Program-made: the position numbers and the translations under genes | Part shown: positions 4,466 to 14,619 of the stretch, piece by piece | Position numbering within the stretch: position 1 is the stretch's first letter | How the letters are laid out: every line of letters starts with the position of its first letter | Assembly (NCBI GenBank): GCA_902791295.1 | Contig: CADAVI010000006.1 | Location: 1 to 37,479, forward strand | Length of the DNA: 37,479 nt | Source of the DNA: an uncultured Bacteroidales bacterium | GTDB taxonomy: Bacteria; Bacteroidota; Bacteroidia; Bacteroidales; Bacteroidaceae | Reading direction: 5' to 3' | The notes under the pieces: model-generated | Seen by the model: only the letters and a program-made list of their open reading frames with translations | What the model was told of the DNA's origin: nothing | The model's database searches: none

Positions 4466-6513
4466 GACAATATACCTTTAAAATTACGTCCCGGCATGGG
4501 ATAGTTGAGTACCACGTCGTATTGTTGGTCGAAGACGTTGTTGACCTCCAGCGTGGCCGCCAGGCGCACATGACGCAGGCGCAGGCCGTAGCGCAGAGAG
4601 AGGTCGTGGGTGTACCAAGGCTGCTCATAGTTGGCCAGGATATTGCTCGAACCGTGGTAGCGCTCACCGGTGTAGATGAAACTGTAGTTGAGCATCAGGT
4701 CCATGTTGCGCCGCATGAGCCACGTGAGCGAGCCCATCGTCGAGGCGGAGTGCCAGGGAATATAGGCTATCTGTCCGCCCCAAGTGCCGGCTTCAGGGTC
4801 ATTGTCCTTCGGATCAGAGAAGTCCTGCGCCTTCTGGTAGGTATAGTTGCCGCCCAGCTCCAGTCTCCAGGCAGGAGCGAACTGCCAGTCTGTCTTAAAC
4901 TGGAACTCCGCACCGAGAATCTCCACGTAGCCCAGGTTCATCATCATCCAGCGATACTGGCTGCTGCCCTTGGGCACGGCGACAATCTTATTGTCCACCT
5001 GGTTGAAATAGCCGTCGGCCTTGAGCTCCAGGCGGCGCAGCATGCTTCTGTCCCAGGCGTGCTTCCACGTGACGCCCACGTCGTATTGCGTGGTGTATTC
5101 CGGTTCGAGGAATTTGTTGCCCATGTCGGTGTAGTAGAGGTCGTTGAACGTCGGCATGCGGAAAATTCGCTTGTAAAAGGCCCGCACCTCAAGGTCCTTG
5201 CTGCTCCTGAGCGGCGTCATGCTGAGAAACACGGAGGGCGTGCAGGCGTTGGTGTTGTCGCTCATGCGGTCGCGGACAAAGGTGCCCAACACCGAAGCCA
5301 TCAGCTTCAGGCGCCACCACTCGTATGCCGCAGCACCCGCCAGGAGCACCGTGTGGCGCGACACGAAGTCCGCGCCCTGCAGGACGCCTTTCAGGCCGTT
5401 CCACTGATAGTCGGCGCTGAGCCCGACGTCCAGCTTGCCGCGACGGCGCGCCGAGGCCACCTCCATGTCATCGAAAATGATGTAGTGGTTGGCCGTGCTG
5501 ACATAGACCTCCTGTTGGCGGAAGGTGTTGTCCACATAGCGCAGCGTGGTGTCGGGATTGAGATAGCGCATCTTGTCCCAGGCGTATTTGACGTTGAACT
5601 GGCTCTCCAGCCTGCCGTCCAACCAGGCTTTCTGTGAATGACTTTGGATAAAAAAGTTGCGGTCCCACTGACGCTGGGCGTGCTTCCACACATTGTTGAC
5701 GATGGCGCCGGGGATGCCGCGCTCGGAGTTGTAGAAATAGGCCTTCACGTTCCAAAGACCTTCGTCGATGTTGCCCTGCACGTAGGCTTCCACGCGTTCA
5801 GCCTGAATGTCGCCGTTGTTGCGCGTGGCCGTCGTGTCCCACATCACCTCGCCCCGCTGATTGACGCGCCGGTAGCGGAAGTCGTACTTGCCCGTGGCAT
5901 CGGTGAACTCGGCACTCAGGCTGCTTGTCACTCGCTTCGACCATTTGTGTTCCCACAGGCCGGCAAGATTCTTCAGGCCGAAACTGCCGCCGCGCGCCGT
6001 GAACTTGAAGTTGTTGCGCTCTCCCTCCATGAAGAGCGGGCGACGGCTGCGTAAATAGAGCGTGCCGCTGGAGCCAAAGTCCTTGGCGGGTTGGAAGATG
6101 CTGCTTTTCTGACCGTTGTAGAGCGTGATTTCCTCCAGGTTGTCCATCGAGTATTTGCCCAAATCGACGATACCATTTTGCGCATTGCCCAGCTGAATGC
6201 CGTCGTAGAAGACACCTAGATGATTGCTGCCCATGGAACGGATATTGACGGTCTTCATGCCGCCCACGCCGCCGTAGTCCTTGAGCTGCACACCGGAGAA
6301 ATAGCGCATGGCATCCGCCACGCTGTGGTGGCGCAACGCCTCCAACTGCGCGCCCGACAGTGTTTGGCCCTCTATCACGGCCTCGGCCTTGGAAGCACGC
6401 ACCTCCACCTCGCCGATACGGTGCACATCGTCGGAGTCGTCCTGCGCATGCACGGGAGCGCACATGCACATAATTAAGGACAAGGCAAAGCCTAAAACAC
6501 TTTTTCTCTTCAT
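4453..6513 (-). CDS. btuB: TonB-dependent cobalamin receptor, BtuB-like
   Basis: This outer-membrane receptor of 686 residues imports a corrinoid using TonB energy. A signal peptide covers residues 1-23 (cleavage after VHA). The plug domain lies at about 35-160, with IGEVEVRASK, SVADAMRYFSGVQLKDYGG and NIRSMGSNHLGVFYDGIQLGN. The remainder is a beta-barrel with alternating aromatic strands, ending in a C-terminal Phe. There is no N-terminal carboxypeptidase-like domain, unlike SusC proteins, and the length suits BtuB. The cobalamin riboswitch directly upstream is the best evidence for the substrate. The ATG at 6513 gives a good signal peptide and is the first start after the riboswitch. It is followed by the overlapping btuG-like gene. 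Repression by B12 is expected. Confidence 0.92.
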   Translation of the reverse strand: MKRKSVLGFALSLIMCMCAPVHAQDDSDDVHRIGEVEVRASKAEAVIEGQTLSGAQLEALRHHSVADAMRYFSGVQLKDYGGVGGMKTVNIRSMGSNHLGVFYDGIQLGNAQNGIVDLGKYSMDNLEEITLYNGQKSSIFQPAKDFGSSGTLYLRSRRPLFMEGERNNFKFTARGGSFGLKNLAGLWEHKWSKRVTSSLSAEFTDATGKYDFRYRRVNQRGEVMWDTTATRNNGDIQAERVEAYVQGNIDEGLWNVKAYFYNSERGIPGAIVNNVWKHAQRQWDRNFFIQSHSQKAWLDGRLESQFNVKYAWDKMRYLNPDTTLRYVDNTFRQQEVYVSTANHYIIFDDMEVASARRRGKLDVGLSADYQWNGLKGVLQGADFVSRHTVLLAGAAAYEWWRLKLMASVLGTFVRDRMSDNTNACTPSVFLSMTPLRSSKDLEVRAFYKRIFRMPTFNDLYYTDMGNKFLEPEYTTQYDVGVTWKHAWDRSMLRRLELKADGYFNQVDNKIVAVPKGSSQYRWMMMNLGYVEILGAEFQFKTDWQFAPAWRLELGGNYTYQKAQDFSDPKDNDPEAGTWGGQIAYIPWHSASTMGSLTWLMRRNMDLMLNYSFIYTGERYHGSSNILANYEQPWYTHDLSLRYGLRLRHVRLAATLEVNNVFDQQYDVVLNYPMPGRNFKGILSCEF

Positions 6514-6540
6514 TCTTCAGCACCCGTATCCGCGCGGGCC

Positions 6541-6724
6541 GTCAGGTCTTCTTTCTGCTTCACGGCAGGTTTTCTGGCTTGTCCCCCACTTGCGCGCCTT
6601 CCCGAAGCCGGAGCCTCAGTGGCTTGTGTTGCGCAATGAAAACGGGACTTACAGCTGCGGGACAGCTCGGGACTTCCACCCGATTCCCTTTTACCGCCAT
6701 CGCTGGCGCACCGTAAATCTGACC
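6541..6724 (-). ncRNA. Cobalamin (AdoCbl-type) riboswitch
   Basis: Read on the minus strand, the leader contains GGTGC (6712-6708), then AAAAGGGAATC, GGTGGAAGTCCC, the CTGTCCCGCAGCTGTAA core, GCCACTG, GGGAAGGC, and a B12 box AAGCCAGAAAACCTGCC at 6580-6564. These are the conserved blocks of the cobalamin riboswitch in the right order. A closing P1 stem can be drawn between GTCAG (6723-6719) and CTGAC (6545-6541). The btuB start lies 28 nt past the P1 stem. No clear U-tract terminator is visible, so control is probably at translation initiation. It should shut off btuB, btuG and the large surface gene when B12 is plentiful. Confidence 0.95.
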
Positions 6725-6725
6725 G

Positions 6726-6733
6726 CAAAGGTA
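6726..6733 (-). promoter_or_regulatory. Bacteroidetes -7 box for the riboswitch/btuB transcript
   Basis: TACCTTTG on the minus strand fits TAnnTTTG and lies just upstream of the P1 stem, so the transcript would start almost at the first base of the aptamer. No clean -33 TTTG is present; the expected position is occupied by the heptamer repeats at 6743-6770. Confidence 0.7.
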
Positions 6734-6742
6734 CGGAAAAAA

Positions 6743-6770
6743 GGTTAAAGGTTAAAGGTTAAAGGTTAAA
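6743..6770. repeat. Four tandem copies of the heptamer GGTTAAA
   Basis: Copies lie at 6743-6749, 6750-6756, 6757-6763 and 6764-6770, all perfect. The array lies in the intergenic space between the GH51 terminator and the btuB riboswitch promoter, across the expected -33 region. The rest of 6771-6820 shows no recognisable feature. Confidence 0.95.
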
Positions 6771-6820
6771 GATTTCGGGTTAATCTCCATTTTTGTCCTT
6801 CAAAGGCATGTTTTGGATAC

Positions 6821-6852
6821 AAAAAAGGAGCGGCACGTCAAAATGCCGCTCC
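6821..6852 (-). terminator. Rho-independent terminator after the first GH51 gene
   Basis: A 9-bp perfect stem (6827-6835 with 6844-6852, GGAGCGGCA) with an 8-nt loop is followed on the minus strand by six T residues (6826-6821). It lies 33 nt past the GH51 stop codon and insulates the riboswitch operon from read-through. Confidence 0.85.
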
Positions 6853-6884
6853 ATAATCCCGACTGTCTCCGGGAGAAAAACTGC

Positions 6885-8861
6885 CTATAGTTCGTACTCC
6901 AACATGGTGAAGGAGTAAGGCGGCATCTTCAGCGTGAAACGCTCTCCGGTCTCCACACGCTCAGTCTTGGGGGAGACAGGCTGATGCTCAAAATTATTCT
7001 CATCGCCGGGCTTGCCTTTGAACACTGTCTTGAGTGCCTGACCCTTGGGAGAGAAGCGGGAGAGGTCTATGGCAGCTTTCCCGGACTTACCGGAGGCGTT
7101 GCAGAGCTTCACATAGAGACGACGCGTTTTGACATTGAGTATGACGCTCTGCTCCTGCAGTGCTCCGTCGCCATTGACGGAAACACAGTCGCCGTAGAAA
7201 TACTGACCTGCCGACTGTCCGAACATCTGCTGCACATAGTAGCTGCACGTCAGATAGGGGCGCTCGTTATCGAAGTAAATCAGATTGGGATTCCAGTTGG
7301 TGGCGCCTTTGCGGGCAAAGAGCGGCGCATAGCTGGTCATGCACACTACGTCGCCGTTGCGCTCGACATGCAGGAGATAAAGCGCCTCGGCAAGGGCATC
7401 GATGAGTTTCTTGTCCTTGGCGGCATACTCGCCCAAATAAACCTTCGTCTTACGGTCACGGGGATATTTGTCGTACTGACGCGACTTGAGGAAGTAGTCG
7501 TGCTTCTCGTAGTAGTGCTCGTCGAGAATCGGCAGGCCGATTTCTTCGGCCAGTTTCCATCCTTTCTCGAAATCCCTGTTGCCCGGATGGGAGCCGGGGC
7601 CGGCGGTGCCCACGATGACAATCTCGGGATGAGCCGCCCGGACGCGCTCGTAGATATACTTAAAACGCTCGATGAATTCCGGCGAAATGCGCTCCTCATT
7701 GCCGATGCCGAGATACTTCAGGCCGAAAGGCTCGGGATGGCCGGCCTCAGCACGCTTGCGGGCCCATACGGAGGTGGCGGGGTCGCCGTTGGCCCACTCG
7801 ATGAGATCGAGAGCATCCTGCACCCATTCGTCCATCCGGTCCATCGGCACGGCGTCCTGGGCCTGTGTCTTCATGTTCCATCCGCCGCCGGCACCCTGAC
7901 AGCTCACGCCGCAGGGCAACACGGGCAGGGGCGCCATACCCAGGTCCTCGCACAACTGGAAATACTCAAAATAGCCCAAGGCCATCGACTGATGGTAGCC
8001 CCAGCAGTTTTTCTGTCCCTGACGGGCCCACTTGGGTCCGATGGTGTTCTTCCAGCGATAGGTGTTCCACATGCCGTCACCGCCGCCGTGGATGATGCAA
8101 CCTCCAGGGAAACGCATAAACGCGGGATGCAACGCGGCCAAAGCCTCAACGAGGTCCTTGCGCAGGCCGTGCCCCTTGTAGGTGTCTTCAGGCAGGAGCG
8201 ACACATCATCGATGTCCACATCGCCCGTGTTGAGCATGATGAGCTGCAAAGCGGCATGTTTGCTGTCGGCGCCGGCCACAAGGTGCAGATTGTAGGCGTT
8301 CCACACGGCGTCGGCGGAAATCTCCACAGTGTCGTCGGCCAGGACTGCGAACGGCTTGCCCTTGCCCTGCGGCTCGGTCAGCACCACGCGCATCTGCTTC
8401 TTTACGCCGTCGTGGTTGCGCAGACGCAGGGAGAAATCATATGCGGCGCCGGCCTTCACGCTGATGCCGTCGAAGCCGCCGTTCTGGATACCGAAACCCG
8501 TCCAGCCCTTATAGTCGTAGTAGTGCCCCACGCGCTCCGTGTGAAGACGCATGAAGGTGGGGCTTCCGAAACCGCTGTTCACGGGCTGGATGTAACCCAA
8601 GGAATGACCGTGGCGCACGGTCTTCCACGCCGTGCCGGGACCCCAGCCGTCGCGCTCGTTGGGGCTGTATTCGAAGGAGCCGTTTTGCACGAGTTCGGCA
8701 TTGAGGCCGCCGTCGGCTGCGTGGCTGATATCCTCAAAGAAGATGCCGATGAGATGATCACTGATGGCCTTGCCGCCGGCAGGGGCCTGATACGCTTCCG
8801 CAGCACCCGCCGAAGCGGAAATGAGCAGAAAAAGAAGAGCGACAATGTTGTTGTATTGCAT
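6885..8861 (-). CDS. Secreted GH51 alpha-L-arabinofuranosidase (first copy)
   Basis: This enzyme hydrolyses terminal alpha-L-arabinofuranosyl groups from arabinan or arabinoxylan fragments, probably in the periplasm. It has 658 residues with a signal peptide (about 1-22). GIFFEDISHAADGGLNAELV near residue 40 is the usual GH51 start. A carbohydrate-binding-like beta segment lies at about 60-225, then a TIM barrel with the acid/base Glu389 in YLGIGNE and nucleophile Glu478 in KVYLGEYA. A C-terminal beta domain ends at TMLEYEL. The downstream terminator and its own promoter make it monocistronic. It is a paralogue of the enzyme at 23128-25107. No SusC/SusD pair is adjacent, so the polysaccharide source cannot be read from context. 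Confidence 0.93.
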   Translation of the reverse strand: MQYNNIVALLFLLISASAGAAEAYQAPAGGKAISDHLIGIFFEDISHAADGGLNAELVQNGSFEYSPNERDGWGPGTAWKTVRHGHSLGYIQPVNSGFGSPTFMRLHTERVGHYYDYKGWTGFGIQNGGFDGISVKAGAAYDFSLRLRNHDGVKKQMRVVLTEPQGKGKPFAVLADDTVEISADAVWNAYNLHLVAGADSKHAALQLIMLNTGDVDIDDVSLLPEDTYKGHGLRKDLVEALAALHPAFMRFPGGCIIHGGGDGMWNTYRWKNTIGPKWARQGQKNCWGYHQSMALGYFEYFQLCEDLGMAPLPVLPCGVSCQGAGGGWNMKTQAQDAVPMDRMDEWVQDALDLIEWANGDPATSVWARKRAEAGHPEPFGLKYLGIGNEERISPEFIERFKYIYERVRAAHPEIVIVGTAGPGSHPGNRDFEKGWKLAEEIGLPILDEHYYEKHDYFLKSRQYDKYPRDRKTKVYLGEYAAKDKKLIDALAEALYLLHVERNGDVVCMTSYAPLFARKGATNWNPNLIYFDNERPYLTCSYYVQQMFGQSAGQYFYGDCVSVNGDGALQEQSVILNVKTRRLYVKLCNASGKSGKAAIDLSRFSPKGQALKTVFKGKPGDENNFEHQPVSPKTERVETGERFTLKMPPYSFTMLEYEL

Positions 8862-8883
8862 GTTTTTTTACGATTTCACACTG

Positions 8884-8891
8884 CAAAAATA
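8884..8891 (-). promoter_or_regulatory. -7 box for the first GH51 gene
   Basis: TATTTTTG on the minus strand matches TAnnTTTG, 22 nt upstream of the GH51 ATG. No convincing -33 box was found. The region 8892-9018 between the two divergent genes is AT-rich and otherwise featureless apart from a weak 6-bp hairpin at 8910-8927. Confidence 0.6.
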
Positions 8892-9018
8892 GGAAAACAA
8901 TTTCAAATAAAGAGGAACGACCCTCTTATTTTATTGTTTTTTAGCAGTCAAGCCTGTTAAATACTGTTCAATTACGACATTTTTTCCTGATGAATCCTGT
9001 TTAGTTCCGCATTTTTTG

Positions 9019-9026
9019 TATCTTTG
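9019..9026 (+). promoter_or_regulatory. -7 box for the GH26 gene
   Basis: TATCTTTG matches TAnnTTTG and lies 42 nt upstream of the chosen GH26 ATG. An earlier ATG at 9024 overlaps this box and is therefore unlikely to be the start. Confidence 0.65.
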
Positions 9027-9068
9027 CAATCGGAAGTCATAAAATATGCGTCACGAGGACAGGGAACA

Positions 9069-10145
9069 ATGACGAAAAAATCATTTCTTCCGGCGGTCTT
9101 TGCCGCCGTTGCTCTCGCCGTCTGCGCGCAGCAGACGCCCCGCCGCTCCCTTGAGGCGGAGCAGTTGCTGCGCTGCCTGCAGTCCGTAGCGGGCGAGAAG
9201 ACGCTGTCGGGCACTATGGCCGACGTCAGCTGGAATCTGAACGAAGCCAAATGGGTGAAGCGGCACACCGGGAAATGGCCCGCCCTCTGCGGCTTCGACT
9301 ACATCCACCACCCCTACTCCGCCAAAGGAGGATGGATTGACTACACGGACATTGACGAAATCACGTCGTGGAACAGTCAGGGCGGCGTGGTCTGCATCAT
9401 GTGGCACTGGAACGTGCCGGCCAACCAAAGCGGGAAATACTCATTCTACTGGGGAAAAGAGGCGGACAAGACAAGTTTCGACGTGCGCAAAATCTTTGAG
9501 CCCACAAGTCCGGAATACCAACAGATGATTCGGGACATCGACCGGATAGCGTCGTATCTGAAACTGCTGAAAGAAAAGCATGTTCCCGTCCTTTGGCGAC
9601 CGCTCCACGAGGCGGGCGGCATGTGGTTTTGGTGGGGCCGGGATCCCGAAGCATGCAATGAACTGTGGCGCATCATGTATCGCCGCTTCCGGGCCGAGGG
9701 ACTCGACAATCTCATCTGGGTGTGGACACAGGCCGCAGCATGGAGCAAGCCCTACAGCGACGGCTACAGATGGTATCCGGGCGATGATTACGTGGACATC
9801 GTGAGCATTGACGTCTATAACAACGGCAGCGCCGACGACATCTGCAACTCCTGCTACAGATTTCTCCGGGATTCCTCCCCCTCCAAACCGGCAGCACTCA
9901 CAGAGTGCGGCAATGTCCCGCCCATCAGCCGCCAGTGGAATGCCGGGGCCAAGTGGCTCTGGTTCATGCCCTGGTACGACCACAGCCGGACCGCCAATCC
10001 CGACAGCCGGGACTTTGCAAGCACGAAGCACGGCAGCTGTGACGCCGAATGGTGGCGTGAGGCCTTTTCCAACGATTTCGTCCTCACACGCGACAAGATG
10101 AAAGCGCTGCGACGGAAAACGGCCAAATTAAGCAGCAACAAATAA
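9069..10145 (+). CDS. Secreted GH26 beta-mannanase
   Basis: This 358-residue enzyme cleaves beta-1,4-mannosidic bonds in mannan, glucomannan or galactomannan. The N-terminus is a signal peptide (about 1-20, ending AVCA before QQ). The GH26 TIM barrel shows LSGTMADVSWN near residue 46, the acid/base Glu171 in WRPLHEAGGMWFWWG, and nucleophile Glu269 in ALTECGN. VSIDVYN near 235 is also typical. The start at 9069 is preferred over 9024 because it gives a clean signal peptide and clears the promoter box. tatA follows 29 nt later with no terminator, so read-through into the Tat operon is possible. The protein itself lacks a twin-arginine signal. Confidence 0.9.
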   Translation: MTKKSFLPAVFAAVALAVCAQQTPRRSLEAEQLLRCLQSVAGEKTLSGTMADVSWNLNEAKWVKRHTGKWPALCGFDYIHHPYSAKGGWIDYTDIDEITSWNSQGGVVCIMWHWNVPANQSGKYSFYWGKEADKTSFDVRKIFEPTSPEYQQMIRDIDRIASYLKLLKEKHVPVLWRPLHEAGGMWFWWGRDPEACNELWRIMYRRFRAEGLDNLIWVWTQAAAWSKPYSDGYRWYPGDDYVDIVSIDVYNNGSADDICNSCYRFLRDSSPSKPAALTECGNVPPISRQWNAGAKWLWFMPWYDHSRTANPDSRDFASTKHGSCDAEWWREAFSNDFVLTRDKMKALRRKTAKLSSNK

Positions 10146-10174: not shown

Positions 10175-10375
10175 ATGTTTGGACTCAGGTTACAGGAAAT
10201 CATCATTATCGCCCTGGTGGTGCTGTTGCTCTTCGGCGGCAAGAAAATCCCCGAACTGATGAAAGGACTCGGACGCGGCGTGAAGAGTTTCAAGGACGGG
10301 CTCAACGAAACCTCCGCCCCCGAAAGCGCCAAAGCAGAAGATAGCGAACAGACCGAAAAAAAGACCGAAGCGTGA
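10175..10375 (+). CDS. tatA: Twin-arginine translocase subunit TatA/TatB
   Basis: This small protein of 66 residues is the pore-forming or adaptor component of the Tat system, which exports folded and often cofactor-loaded proteins across the inner membrane. It has a single N-terminal membrane helix (about residues 7-21, IIIIALVVLLLFG), the family hallmark FGGKKIPEL hinge, an amphipathic helix KGLGRGVKSFKDG and a charged tail. It overlaps tatC by 4 nt (GTGA), indicating translational coupling. No separate tatB is visible, so this is a minimal TatAC pair. Confidence 0.95.
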   Translation: MFGLRLQEIIIIALVVLLLFGGKKIPELMKGLGRGVKSFKDGLNETSAPESAKAEDSEQTEKKTEA

Positions 10376-11112
10376 CCTTCTGGGACCATTTGGACGAACT
10401 GCGCAGCGTCATCATCCGCGCCCTCATCGCCGTGGTGCTGCTGGCTGCGGCGGCCTTCTCGCTGAAGGAGCCGCTTTTCGCCCTGCTGCTGGCGCCGACC
10501 CACAGCGACTTCTGCACTTACCGAATGATCGGGGCCGACACGGACTTCAGCCTGCACCTTATCAATACGGGACTGACGGAGCAGTTCATGACCCACATGC
10601 GCACGGCGCTCTACGCCGGATTGCTGACGGCGTCACCCTACGTGCTCTGCGTGCTTTTCCGCTTCATTTCGCCCGGGCTCTACGAGAACGAGCGGCGACT
10701 GGGCACACGACTTGTCATCGGCGCCTACGCGATGTTCATCCTGGGCACGCTGCTCAACTACTTCATCGTATTCCCGCTGGCTGTGCGCTTCCTGGGCACC
10801 TACCAGGTGAGCCCCGAGGTGGGCAACATGCTCACACTGCAGTCATACACAGACACGATGCTGGGGCTGGGGCTCATGATGGGACTCATGTGCGAGCTGC
10901 CCGTTGTCTGCTGGTTGCTGGCGCGCTATGGATTCATCAATTCCGGGATGCTGCGCACATACCGGCGCCACGCCGTTGTTGCCGTTCTCTTCGCGGCCGC
11001 CGTCGTCACCCCCACAGGTGACCCCTTTTCTCTTGCGGTCGTGAGCCTGCCCATATATCTTCTCTACGAACTGAGTATTTTCATCACACACCGCACCAAG
11101 AAATATGCTTAA
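10372..11112 (+). CDS. tatC: Twin-arginine translocase subunit TatC
   Basis: TatC recognises twin-arginine signal peptides and, with TatA, forms the translocon. The 246-residue protein begins with FWDHLDELR, the conserved cytoplasmic TatC motif with its key acidic residues. Six membrane helices can be placed, and the first cytoplasmic loop shows SPGLYENERR, which contains the family's conserved Glu and Arg. The start codon is GTG at 10372, inside the tatA stop region. It overlaps the following polyferredoxin gene by 8 nt, so tatA, tatC and that gene are almost certainly translated from one message. Confidence 0.96.
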   Translation: MTFWDHLDELRSVIIRALIAVVLLAAAAFSLKEPLFALLLAPTHSDFCTYRMIGADTDFSLHLINTGLTEQFMTHMRTALYAGLLTASPYVLCVLFRFISPGLYENERRLGTRLVIGAYAMFILGTLLNYFIVFPLAVRFLGTYQVSPEVGNMLTLQSYTDTMLGLGLMMGLMCELPVVCWLLARYGFINSGMLRTYRRHAVVAVLFAAAVVTPTGDPFSLAVVSLPIYLLYELSIFITHRTKKYA

Positions 11113-12577
11113 ACGCACAAGACAAATCCTCGCCGCCCTCTTCTTTGCGGGCATCACGCTGCTGCTGCTTGACGTCTCGGGCACTCTGTTTCACTATCTG
11201 AGCTGGATGCCCAAAATGCAGTTGCTGCCGGCCATTTTGGCTGCCAACCTGGCCGTTGTGGCCATCATCCTTGCTCTGACCCTGCTGCTGGGCCGTATCT
11301 ATTGCTCCGTCATCTGCCCCCTGGGCGTGATGCAGGATCTGGCGGCACGCCTCAACCGCAAGCGTAATCCCTACAGCCTCTCCCCCGCCCTGTGGTGGCT
11401 GAGACTAACGGCGTTGTGCGTCTTCGTCCTGCTGATTGTAACAGGGCTCACGGGCGTTGCCGCCCTCATCGCCCCCTACAGCACCTACGGACGTATCGTG
11501 ACACATCTCATCCAGCCCCTCTGGATCGGTGCAGACAACCTGCTGGCGCTCGGAGCGGAGGCGGTGGACAGTTACGCCGTGTCAGAGGCCGACTGGGTGT
11601 GGTACGGATGGATGCCCCTTATTGTCACCTCGCTCACGCTCATCATCATTGCCGTGCTGGCTTACAGGGGCGGACGCACATGGTGCAACACCGTATGTCC
11701 CGTGGGCACTGCACTGGGCTGCGTCGCACGTTTCTCGCTGCTGAAGGTGCGCTTCAATGAGGAGCAATGCATCGGCTGCGGTAAATGCTCGCGTAACTGC
11801 AAGGCCGCCTGTATCGACTTTAAGACCTACGACATCGACTACTCGCGCTGCGTCACCTGCGGCAACTGCATCGATCTCTGCCCGAAAGGCGCGCTGAATT
11901 ACGGTCTTGCCGCAAGCAGCAAAATAAAGGCGGAGAAAGAGAATACCGTGGACAGGAGTAAACGCCAATTCCTCATCGGCACCGCTCTGTTGGCCGGCAC
12001 CGCTCTGGCTCAGGAAGAGAAAAAAGTGGACGGCGGACTGGCCGAAATTGTGAACAAAGCGGCGCCTGAGCGACAGACACCGCTGACACCGCCGGGCAGC
12101 CTCACGGCCCGCAACATGACCGAGAAGTGTACCGCCTGCCAGCTCTGCGTGTCGGAGTGTCCCAACGACGTGTTGCGGCCCTCGACGTCGCTGGAGCATT
12201 TCATGCAGCCCACGATGGGCTATGAGCACGGATACTGCCGTCCGGAGTGCGTCCGTTGCTCCCAAGTGTGCCCCACGGGTGCCATACGTCCCATCACCAA
12301 ACAGGAGAAATCATCGCTGCAAATCGGCCATGCCGTGTGGGTGAAGCAAAACTGCGTGCCCCTGACCGACGGCGTGGAGTGCGGCAACTGTGCCCGCCAC
12401 TGCCCCACCGGCGCCATCACGATGGTGCCCTCCGACCCCGACGATGAATGGTCGCTGAAAGTGCCGGTGGTCAACACGTCCACATGTATCGGCTGCGGCG
12501 CCTGCGAGAATCTCTGTCCGGCACGTCCGCTCTCTGCCATCTACGTTGAGGGACACGAGATGCACCGGGTCATTTAA
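11105..12577 (+). CDS. Membrane polyferredoxin, NapH/NosR-like fused to NapG-like ferredoxin
   Basis: This 490-residue protein probably carries electrons from the membrane or cytoplasm to a periplasmic acceptor. Residues 1-190 hold four membrane helices and the NapH/NosR-type motif CSVICP (67-72), with a second, CNTVCP, at 194-199. A first ferredoxin pair follows (CIGCGKCSRNC at 222-232 and CVTCGNCIDLCP near 249-260). Residues 284-303 (RSKRQFLIG and a hydrophobic run ending ALA) look like an embedded Tat signal or anchor. After it come four more cysteine clusters (342-352, 378-389, 417-433, 461-471), as in NapG. The layout therefore resembles NapH joined to NapG. The gene sits between tatC and the Tat-exported aldo/keto reductase, its likely redox partner (inference). 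Confidence 0.88.
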   Translation: MLKRTRQILAALFFAGITLLLLDVSGTLFHYLSWMPKMQLLPAILAANLAVVAIILALTLLLGRIYCSVICPLGVMQDLAARLNRKRNPYSLSPALWWLRLTALCVFVLLIVTGLTGVAALIAPYSTYGRIVTHLIQPLWIGADNLLALGAEAVDSYAVSEADWVWYGWMPLIVTSLTLIIIAVLAYRGGRTWCNTVCPVGTALGCVARFSLLKVRFNEEQCIGCGKCSRNCKAACIDFKTYDIDYSRCVTCGNCIDLCPKGALNYGLAASSKIKAEKENTVDRSKRQFLIGTALLAGTALAQEEKKVDGGLAEIVNKAAPERQTPLTPPGSLTARNMTEKCTACQLCVSECPNDVLRPSTSLEHFMQPTMGYEHGYCRPECVRCSQVCPTGAIRPITKQEKSSLQIGHAVWVKQNCVPLTDGVECGNCARHCPTGAITMVPSDPDDEWSLKVPVVNTSTCIGCGACENLCPARPLSAIYVEGHEMHRVI

Positions 12578-12604
12578 TATCCAATCACAAAAAAAGTATA
12601 CACC

Positions 12605-13984
12605 ATGAGCAAGCATATCGAACGACGCGACTTCCTGAAACTCTTCGGCGCAGGAGTCGCCGGCGTGACCGCCGCCCTCACAGGGTGCAGGCCCAAGACC
12701 GTAGCAGGCCCCATCAAGGACGACTACAGTCAGTTGCAGGAAGCCCGGGGAGACCGGATGACCTACCGCAAAAACCCCACCACGGGCGACAAAGTGTCGC
12801 TCTTGGGCTACGGCATGATGCGACTGCCCAACAGGGAAGACGGCGAGATTGACCAGGAGGCCGTCAACCGGCTGGTGGACTACGCACTGGCCCACGGCGT
12901 GAACTATTTCGACACATCGCCCGCCTATTGTCGCGGCAACAGCGAAAAAGCCACCGGCATCGCCCTCTCCAGACACCCGCGCGATTCCTACTTCATAGCC
13001 ACGAAACTCTCCAACTTCAACCAGGCTACCTGGGGACGAAGGGAGAGCATCGATATGTTTGAGAACTCGCTCAAGGAACTGCAGACCGACTACATCGACT
13101 ACTATCTGCTGCACGGATGCGGCATGGGCGGCATGGACAACCTCAAGGCACGCTACCTGGACAACGGCATGCTCCACTACTGCATCGGACAGAGACGGGA
13201 AGGGCGCATCCGCAACCTGGGATTCTCGTATCACGGCGACGTGGCCGTGTTCGACTACCTGCTCTCCATCCACGACCAGGTGCACTGGGACTTCGTGCAA
13301 ATCGAGCTGAACTACCTCGATTGGGACTACGCCAACGAAATCAACGACCGCAACACCGATGCACGCTATCTCTACGCCGAACTGCAGAAGCGGGGCATCC
13401 CGGCCGTCATCATGGAGCCCCTCCTGGGCGGCCGTCTGGCCAACATCCCGCAATACCTCATGGAGCGCATGAAACAACGTGACCCCGATGCCAGCATCGC
13501 CTCGTGGGCATTCCGCTACGCCGGCACGCCGGAAGGGGTGCTCACCGTGCTCAGCGGCATGACCTACATGGAACATCTCAAGGACAATCTGCTGACCTAC
13601 TGCCCCCTGAAGCCCGTCACGCCAGAAGAGGAAAACTTCCTATACGACATCGCCTACCACATTGTCAACGTGAAACTCATCCCATGCAACGACTGCAAAT
13701 ACTGCATGCCCTGTCCCTACGGCGTGGACATCCCCGGACTCTTCGTGCACTACAACAAGGTGAAGAGCCACGACCGTCTGCCCGAAAACGCTCAGGACAG
13801 CGGATACGCCCGCTTGCGCCGTGAATTCCTTGTGGGGCAAGACCGCAGTGTGCCGCGACTCCGACAAGCCGCTCATTGCATCGGCTGCGGGCAGTGCAAA
13901 CCTCATTGTCCGCAAAACATCGACATACCCGAGGAATTGCACAAGATAGACGAGTTTGTGGAGAATCTCAGACAAAACACATAA
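12605..13984 (+). CDS. Tat-exported aldo/keto reductase lipoprotein with ferredoxin domain
   Basis: This 459-residue protein has the twin-arginine motif ERRDFLK at residues 6-12 and a lipobox LTGC (Cys28), so it should be exported folded and lipid-anchored. An aldo/keto reductase barrel follows: LLGYGMMRLP, the catalytic Asp/Tyr in FDTSPAYCRG, Lys in IATKLS and His in YLLHGCG. The C-terminus carries CNDCKYCMPCPYG and CIGCGQCKPHCPQ, typical of ferredoxin-linked aldo/keto reductases. It lies 27 nt after the polyferredoxin gene in the tatAC operon and is the obvious cargo. A periplasmic NADPH supply is not expected, so electrons more plausibly arrive through iron-sulfur clusters (inference). The substrate is unknown. 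Confidence 0.92.
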   Translation: MSKHIERRDFLKLFGAGVAGVTAALTGCRPKTVAGPIKDDYSQLQEARGDRMTYRKNPTTGDKVSLLGYGMMRLPNREDGEIDQEAVNRLVDYALAHGVNYFDTSPAYCRGNSEKATGIALSRHPRDSYFIATKLSNFNQATWGRRESIDMFENSLKELQTDYIDYYLLHGCGMGGMDNLKARYLDNGMLHYCIGQRREGRIRNLGFSYHGDVAVFDYLLSIHDQVHWDFVQIELNYLDWDYANEINDRNTDARYLYAELQKRGIPAVIMEPLLGGRLANIPQYLMERMKQRDPDASIASWAFRYAGTPEGVLTVLSGMTYMEHLKDNLLTYCPLKPVTPEEENFLYDIAYHIVNVKLIPCNDCKYCMPCPYGVDIPGLFVHYNKVKSHDRLPENAQDSGYARLRREFLVGQDRSVPRLRQAAHCIGCGQCKPHCPQNIDIPEELHKIDEFVENLRQNT

Positions 13985-14003: not shown

Positions 14004-14011
14004 TACCTTTG
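14004..14011 (+). promoter_or_regulatory. -7 box for the cobalamin adenosyltransferase gene
   Basis: TACCTTTG matches TAnnTTTG, 23 nt before the ATG at 14035. The preceding 20 nt are AT-rich without a clear -33 box. It marks a transcription unit separate from the Tat operon. Confidence 0.7.
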
Positions 14012-14034: not shown

Positions 14035-14619
14035 ATGAATATATACACAAAAACGGGCGATCGGGGCGAGACCTCCCTTGTGGGCGGCAGGCGCGTGAGC
14101 AAATGCTGCCAGCGCCTTGAGAGCTACGGCACATTGGACGAACTGAACGCCCATATCGGTCTGCTGGCCGCCGAGGCCGAAGGCATGACGCTGCCCGGCG
14201 GCTTCATCCGCAAGCTGCAGGACGACCTCTTCACCTGCGGCGCCTATTTGGCCTCGGAGGACGACCGCTGCCCCTGCATCGGCCCTGAGGCCGTGAGCGC
14301 ACTGGAAAAGGAAATCGACCGCATGGAGGCGACGCTGCCGCCACTCCGGAGCTTCATCCTGCCAGGCGGGTGCAAAGCCGCGGCCGAGGCCCACGTGTGC
14401 CGCACCGTGTGCCGGAGGGTGGAGCGCGAAGTGCTGCGTCTGACAGACGAGGGCATCCGGGTGGAGCCTGCACTGCTCTGCTACTTCAACCGCCTGAGCG
14501 ACTACTTCTTTGTATTAGCCCGCGCCCTCAACAGGGAGGCAGGACACGAAGAACGCTGCTGGCAGCCGAACAAAGACAAAAATAACAAAACACATACGCA
14601 TAATGAAAAAAAATCTTGA
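14035..14619 (+). CDS. pduO: PduO-type ATP:cob(I)alamin adenosyltransferase
   Basis: The enzyme transfers the 5'-deoxyadenosyl group of ATP to cob(I)alamin, making adenosylcobalamin. The 194-residue protein opens with IYTKTGDRGETSLVGG, the ATP-binding signature of this family, followed by RLESYGTLDELNAHIG. The C-terminal helix carries NRLSDYFFVLARALN, also diagnostic. The last part is a lysine- and asparagine-rich tail, which overlaps metY by 17 nt. It connects with the B12 uptake operon at 1-6733, although it has its own promoter and no riboswitch, so cofactor activation would continue whatever the B12 level. Confidence 0.94.
   Translation: MNIYTKTGDRGETSLVGGRRVSKCCQRLESYGTLDELNAHIGLLAAEAEGMTLPGGFIRKLQDDLFTCGAYLASEDDRCPCIGPEAVSALEKEIDRMEATLPPLRSFILPGGCKAAAEAHVCRTVCRRVEREVLRLTDEGIRVEPALLCYFNRLSDYFFVLARALNREAGHEERCWQPNKDKNNKTHTHNEKKS

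Follow-up and report, generated by a model that had tools for sequence, protein, structure and literature searches.

The question raised by this locus is what a twin-arginine translocation (Tat) system serves when its genes run straight into those of two redox proteins. The locus lies in a 37,479-nt stretch of DNA (the window) from contig CADAVI010000006.1 of an uncultured Bacteroidales bacterium (assembly GCA_902791295.1) and consists of four plus-strand genes. These are tatA (positions 10175 to 10375; 66 residues; 51.2 bits to PF02416 and over the cutoff of TIGR01411), tatC (10372 to 11112; 246 residues; 208 bits to PF00902 and over the cutoff of TIGR00945), a polyferredoxin gene encoding a NapH-NapG fusion (11105 to 12577; 490 residues; Fer4_5 and many Fer4 models), and the gene of an aldo/keto reductase (AKR) of the Tat-lipoprotein type with a C-terminal double 4Fe-4S domain (12605 to 13984; 459 residues; PF00248, Fer4_9, and TIGR01409 over cutoff). 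Successive spacings are −4, −8, and +27 nt, with the GTG start of tatC overlapping the tatA stop by 4 nt and no internal stops, and the coordinates thus confirm the head-to-tail order and the 4- and 8-nt overlaps of the original prediction. That prediction held that the Tat system may be dedicated to one exported redox lipoprotein, the AKR, fed by the polyferredoxin. We favor a modified answer, to which we give a probability of roughly two in three (0.68), namely, that TatAC serves both the polyferredoxin and the AKR and so builds a membrane-spanning electron wire to a periplasmic AKR exported with a bound nucleotide.

The twin-arginine motif and the lipobox ascribed to the AKR are both present. 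Together they occupy 12617 to 12691 on the plus strand, from the ERRDFLK motif to about Cys28 (codon 12686 to 12688), as read from the sequence, the TIGR01409 match, and the alignment. The signal scored 17.1 bits with TIGR01409 (cutoff, 16.7) and 16.5 bits with PF10518, under the cutoff of that model (22.7). By pattern, the motif R[RK]-x-F was found in 78 of 81 AKRs, the three misses being a protein truncated at the contig start, one with RRNFM that the pattern overlooked, and one with RG. A simple lipobox pattern fits 68 of the 81, most of the others retaining a cysteine nearby, and Cys28 is invariant in all 45 aligned rows.

Domain models and cysteine clusters also fit the description of the second redox protein as a NapH/NapG-like membrane polyferredoxin. 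Fer4_5 (residues 47 to 88), the NapH model (167 to 266), and the NapG model (278 to 481) place a NapH-like membrane half before a NapG-like half, with both Nap models matching below their curated cutoffs. The first half contains two ferredoxin-type cysteine groups (222 to 259) and CxxxC pairs at 67 to 71 and 194 to 198, and the second contains four groups (342 to 471). Between the halves, from residue 286, the protein reads KRQFLIGTALLAGTALAQ, that is, an internal KR-x-F-L motif (KR-QFL) with a weakly hydrophobic stretch (residues 286 to 305; 11960 to 12019, plus strand), which we propose to be a Tat-dependent fifth transmembrane segment. Its best 19-residue hydropathy was 0.59, versus 2.17 to 2.81 in the four main earlier segments, as computed by other means than the server of PMC5449189. 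The junction was compared in 69 of 74 polyferredoxins (>440 residues, window included), and [RK]R was found there in 66 (RR in 53 and KR in 13), with x-F next in 64 and other residues in 3. In the extracts available of PMC5449189, reporter export by a dual Sec/Tat polyferredoxin was abolished in a tat mutant and by the replacement of RR with KK. Since the protein encoded here joins NapH- and NapG-type halves around an internal Tat-like motif, as in that published family, it is very probably a second Tat client. A connection between the KR form and tat linkage was considered and rejected (8 of 13 KR forms linked versus 20 of 53 RR forms; p 0.21).

Alternatively, Tat might serve the lipoprotein AKR alone, which would be fed by a polyferredoxin inserted through Sec like other membrane proteins. 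This would agree with the KR at the polyferredoxin junction in place of RR, with the single over-cutoff Tat signal of the genome, which belongs to the AKR, and with the strict co-occurrence of AKR and TatC (see below). Set against it are the 66 of 69 conserved junctions, the Tat dependence published for a member of the fusion family (extracts of PMC5449189), and the absence of the polyferredoxin from every TatC-less genome of the family, and we regard it as improbable.

Co-occurrence was scored in a family sample of 81 genomes, with AKRs called at E values of up to 1e-40. Left out of the count were 2 sub-cutoff TatC rows, the 8 polyferredoxin rows that scored lowest, and the 12 weakest AKR rows (identity of up to 40%, and two fragments, from G204 and G201); per-genome presence was unchanged. 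TatC was present in 68 genomes, the AKR in 59, and the polyferredoxin in 60. Both TatC and the AKR occurred in 59 genomes, TatC without the AKR in 9, the AKR without TatC in none, and neither in 13 (Fisher, 1.3e-9); the same four classes for TatC and the polyferredoxin were 60, 8, 0, and 13 (Fisher, 5.4e-10). All 13 TatC-less genomes hence lacked both redox proteins. Comparison within genera provides a partial control for kinship: where TatC varies within a genus (7 genera), the AKR covaries without exception in 6, the seventh genus never having an AKR, and the polyferredoxin covaries in the same 6 with one exception (G213, with TatC and AKR and no polyferredoxin match). In a further 3 genera, some TatC-bearing genomes have no AKR. 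At the level of the order (149 genomes; AKR and polyferredoxin called at 1e-20), TatC was over the cutoff in 124 genomes, and the AKR and polyferredoxin were called in 33 and 67, respectively. An AKR of at least 50% identity was found in 26 genomes, that of the window included, and TatC was over the cutoff in all 26.

Within the source genome, the assembly of which is 85% complete, a limit on all counts made in it, there is one TatC match (PF00902) and one TatA/B-type match (PF02416), both in this locus; the assembled genome therefore has the minimal TatAC set, TatA and TatC with no separate TatB. Scanning it for other twin-arginine signals yielded the AKR alone over the TIGR01409 cutoff, and with PF10518, nothing exceeded the cutoff and the AKR ranked first. 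Two more TIGR01409 matches stayed below the threshold (15.0 and 13.5 bits), one in a GH25 gene and one in a near-copy of its region, the two lying on different contigs (L176 and L177; C105 and C125). The GH25 protein has the N terminus MEVSRRNLLKK inside a longer open frame, and it is possibly a further Tat client or else a Sec one. G185, the closest relative sampled (AKR 88% identical), also has one signal over the cutoff, again that of the AKR, while counts across the family sample run from 0 to 18, two genomes of the source's own genus reaching 18. Many predicted Tat substrates, of the kind that would speak against dedication, occur in some relatives, the source genome and G185 having one signal each. 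Genomes with linked tat genes had a median of 1 Tat signal versus 3 in unlinked ones (Mann-Whitney p 0.017, kinship uncorrected). We consider Tat dedication plausible in the source genome, judging from its gene content. The single TatC gene, the single TatA/B-type gene, and the single over-cutoff signal agree with what had been proposed, and it is the number of clients, very probably two, that departs from it.

A general housekeeping Tat system with many substrates, standing beside two of its clients by chance, could explain why 31 of the 59 AKR-bearing family genomes show no tatC within 6 kb of that gene, why some relatives have up to 18 signals, and why two sub-threshold signals appear in the source genome. 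It is harder to reconcile with the recurrence of tat linkage in three arrangements (window included, tat genes upstream in 11 loci, directly downstream in 13, and downstream after DUF1893 or ECF in 8), with the fewer Tat signals of linked genomes, and with the one signal over the cutoff here. It seems to us an unlikely explanation of this locus.

As for conservation of the four-gene block in Bacteroidales, tat linkage is frequent and not regular. In the family sample, tatC lies within 6 kb of the AKR in 28 of 59 genomes, and some of the other 31 are perhaps cases of contig ends. At the order level, considering AKRs of at least 50% identity in the 25 genomes besides that of the window and leaving out weaker paralogs, tatA and tatC were found near the AKR in the fetched stretches of 5 (L059, L060, L063, L069, and L085, the last with an AKR fragment at the contig start), and L058 and L061 have tatA alone. 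The polyferredoxin is the steadier companion, its gene standing no more than 400 nt from that of the AKR in 54 of the 59 family genomes; G204, G153, and G181 were scored as having no adjacent pair and may have one (fragment or partial match). We also inspected as named loci the best 80 of 577 confirmed from the AKR search, most of their titles being Bacteroidales taxa. The polyferredoxin was present in 73, and in 71 no more than 150 nt separated it from the AKR; where they occurred together, the two always shared a strand, with a median gap of 21 nt. A tat gene was found in 31 loci (tatC in 29), DUF1893 in 19, an ECF-like gene in 13, and TonB in 5; among the 56 loci with ample flanks, 25 were tat linked and 53 had the polyferredoxin. 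Apart from tat, DUF1893, ECF-like genes, and the other seeds, no unlabeled cluster of operon neighbors reached 4 of the named loci. On a tree of 81 AKRs, tat linkage changed at least 20 times (12 forced by starred branches; quick method), a number that is inflated because some "unlinked" loci end at contig edges. We therefore rejected tat plus AKR alone as a unit, the pairing of AKR and polyferredoxin being steadier than tat linkage: the conserved unit is polyferredoxin plus AKR, which the tat genes join often and not always.

Several variants of the arrangement were seen. In L058, L145, and L162, tatA without tatC stands beside the pair in the fetched stretch, and the sole TatC found in the genome of L058 (G028) is on another contig. 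G159 has a second AKR-tatA-tatC block (L216, 2531 to 3412) preceded by what appears to be the NapG-like half of the polyferredoxin alone. The AKR also occurs on contigs labeled Candidatus Kapaibacterium and Deltaproteobacteria (L131 and L170), by transfer or mis-binning.

The catalytic tetrad of AKRs consists of Asp, Tyr, Lys, and His, and here the corresponding residues, D103, Y108, K134, and H170, are invariant in all 45 aligned rows and align with those of solved AKRs, as invariant as the eight cluster cysteines (45 of 45). The structural model (mean predicted local distance difference test [pLDDT] score, 86; predicted template modeling [pTM] score, 0.81) has AKR-fold enzymes as the best 50 PDB matches listed and resembles TM1743 with NADP (nicotinamide adenine dinucleotide phosphate) and L-galactose dehydrogenases with NAD or NADP. 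Given the invariant tetrad and cysteines and the match to solved AKRs, the barrel is not evidently dead, and a bound nicotinamide nucleotide is likely on the basis of the model. An exported AKR had been called unexpected because NADPH is not available outside the membrane; that objection is weakened by the glucose-fructose oxidoreductase of Zymomonas, which is exported by Tat with NADP bound (a precedent in the reference list of the review PMC7317946).

From these elements, the following course can be proposed. TatA and TatC would form a minimal Tat translocase, as suggested by their family membership and by the assembly having no further TatA/B gene. Sec would insert the four NapH-like helices of the polyferredoxin, and the fifth segment, with KR-QFL, would be handed to Tat, which would move the NapG-like half across; the conserved motif, the hydropathy, and the published family member point to this step. 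The AKR would take up two 4Fe-4S clusters and, very likely, a nicotinamide nucleotide while folding in the cytoplasm, and its signal, seen in the sequence, suggests that it leaves by Tat and becomes lipid anchored at Cys28. Outside, the NapG half and the C-terminal clusters of the AKR would exchange electrons, coupling the chemistry of the AKR either to the quinone pool or to a cytoplasmic donor of low potential. Menaquinol, at about −74 mV, is too weak to reduce most carbonyls, and thermodynamically it is easier to oxidize a sugar or alcohol with menaquinone as the acceptor than to reduce a carbonyl with menaquinol. Either the AKR would therefore pass electrons from its substrate to the quinone pool, or electrons of low potential would arrive from the cytoplasm. 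Both directions have parallels, NapH-like proteins serving extracytosolic reductases and oxidases according to extracts of PMC8238504.

Chemically, one would expect a flavin to mediate between the one-electron clusters and nicotinamide, and a secreted flavodoxin would be a candidate for this role. Contig C86 of the same genome encodes, unlinked to the locus, a Flavodoxin_4 protein (L212, 1423 to 1968) whose signal looks by eye like that of a lipoprotein and which might be such a flavin partner outside the cytoplasm. Genes for flavodoxins or Tat-type flavin mononucleotide (FMN) reductases stand beside or between those of the polyferredoxin and the AKR in a few relatives; in L078, for instance, the span from one to the other (6441 to 9078) includes a small protein, a transporter of short-chain fatty acids, and an FMN reductase with a Tat signal, which may hint at the substrate. 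These genes are also compatible with the two proteins being exported without working together, the polyferredoxin serving another periplasmic enzyme such as a flavodoxin, as are the few AKR copies without an adjoining polyferredoxin (L079, L080, and G213). The near-constant adjacency of the two genes makes such independence doubtful, and we hold it to be improbable.

The proposed wire may also have another partner. In G108 (L083), the gene order is DUF362-polyferredoxin-tatA-tatC; in G051 (L084), tatA-tatC is followed by DUF362-polyferredoxin with one opposing gene called between; and in G197 (L217), which lacks the AKR, it is tatA-tatC-DUF362-polyferredoxin. A Tat signal over the TIGR01409 cutoff was found in the DUF362 protein of L217 only (20.2 bits), those of L083 and L084 having an RR motif by eye (PF10518 under its cutoff in L083 and no model match in L084). 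The constant theme suggested by these loci is tatAC together with a wire of the NapH-NapG type and a redox partner that is exported. Taken further, this would be extracellular nicotinamide chemistry without an NAD(P)H pool, in which a permanently bound nucleotide is recharged or discharged via two 4Fe-4S clusters by a Tat-assembled wire, the whole Tat system being kept solely to this end in the source genome and others like it and the enzyme seat being swappable with a DUF362 protein; we put this forward as a speculation that is rather unlikely to hold in full.

Several points weigh against the proposal that TatAC serves both proteins and that they form one wire, besides the incompleteness of the assembly. 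The polyferredoxin of the window has KR and not RR, [RK]R is missing in 3 of 69 junctions, and even a lysine substitution in the twin-arginine pair is poorly tolerated according to the part available of the review PMC7317946. At the order level, G052 and G098 have a 39% identical polyferredoxin and no TatC match, which weighs against strict TatC dependence of the wider polyferredoxin family, and 9 of the 68 TatC-bearing family genomes have no AKR. The co-occurrence with TatC is expected of any Tat client and is no proof that the AKR and the polyferredoxin touch. There was no TIGR01409 match in 4 of the 59 AKR genomes and there was one in 2 of the 13 TatC-less genomes, so the signal count is imperfect in both directions. 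Direct transfer from cluster to nicotinamide without a flavin would be odd. Lastly, the model of the polyferredoxin is weak (mean pLDDT, 75; pTM, 0.50) and unfit for a test of the complex, so that modeling of the AKR-polyferredoxin pair was dropped; Foldseek gave query TM-scores of no more than 0.14 among the matches listed.

Upstream, a plus-strand GH26 glycosidase gene (9024 to 10145) ends 29 nt before tatA, and downstream, a cobalamin adenosyltransferase gene (14035 to 14619) starts 50 nt after the AKR. Boxes of the form TAnnTTTG, which we take to be the Bacteroidales −7 box consensus, number 25 in the window versus 9.4 expected. Two candidates on the plus strand are TATCTTTG (9019 to 9026), ahead of the GH26 gene, and TACCTTTG (14004 to 14011), ahead of the adenosyltransferase gene; besides TATCTTTG, the first 13 kb have a single plus-strand box, which coincides with the start codon of tatA (10174). 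From the positions of these two boxes, the GH26 gene may be cotranscribed with the tat-polyferredoxin-AKR run, and the second box is likely the start of the next transcription unit. In the claim of a self-contained operon, the four-gene run thus stands, and its isolation is uncertain. GH26 was rejected as a member of the module, given that G185 has the order tatA-tatC-polyferredoxin-AKR-adenosyltransferase with no GH26 gene upstream. No periplasmic nitrate reductase was seen among the open reading frames of the window between 6.9 and 18.6 kb (seven Pfam scanned and the others by eye; the rest of the genome was not searched). In relatives, the AKR is followed by DUF1893 and ECF-like genes, in some cases together with DUF362 or a TonB receptor (L058, 1103 to 4983; L109; L151), which may point to a link with uptake. 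A guess at the substrate from such neighbors was dropped, the TonB and ECF partners being inconstant and DUF1893 uninformative.

If correct, our proposal would help to explain the retention of Tat in many Bacteroidales, 59 of the 68 TatC-bearing family genomes having the AKR. It would describe a Tat system that serves, in nature and possibly for a single purpose, one lipoprotein client and one membrane client, and it points to a redox activity that common anaerobes would carry out at their inner membrane. Already known are tat genes linked to a client gene, polyferredoxins that use both Sec and Tat, and NapH proteins as modular wires; among open-license PMC papers, we found none on an exported iron-sulfur AKR beside a polyferredoxin.

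Several known systems resemble parts of the proposed one. An AKR barrel followed by a Fer4_9-type domain is the plan of the AKRs with a C-terminal 4Fe-4S domain, presumably COG1453. Unlike the AKR described here, the weaker relatives found mostly come without the signal region: at 36 to 40% identity, they align for the most part from query residue 49 to 66 on, the signal excluded, with G030:C26 as an exception. The proposed export of the AKR with its cofactor resembles that of glucose-fructose oxidoreductase, an NADP-containing enzyme. The latter has another fold and no iron-sulfur domain and recycles its own cofactor instead of being wired. As in the flavinylated NapH-like systems, the NapH-like protein would act as a modular wire to extracytosolic enzymes (extracts of PMC8238504); unlike them, no FMN-binding domain was reported in the Pfam scan of the polyferredoxin. 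With the NapGH quinol dehydrogenase (extracts of PMC5449189), it shares a quinol-linked type of membrane half and a periplasmic polyferredoxin half, here in one fused chain, with NapH and NapG models under their cutoffs and no nitrate reductase seen alongside. A counterpart of the run as a whole is phoD-tatAdCd of Bacillus subtilis, in which minimal TatAC genes adjoin a client that needs that translocase (extracts of PMC3068169); there the client is a phosphodiesterase and the organism has a second TatAC, and here there would be two redox clients and a single TatAC. The wire itself resembles the dual Sec/Tat polyferredoxin Q1NSB0 of MLMS-1 in its succession of NapH-like half, Tat-like motif, and NapG-like half, and its cysteine groups would permit a similar split of clusters. 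Carriers of that family include chloroflexi, nitrospirae, and euryarchaeota, and the available text of PMC5449189 names no AKR partner; the protein described here differs in having KR for RR, in its occurrence in Bacteroidales, and in sharing its run with an AKR partner and tatAC.

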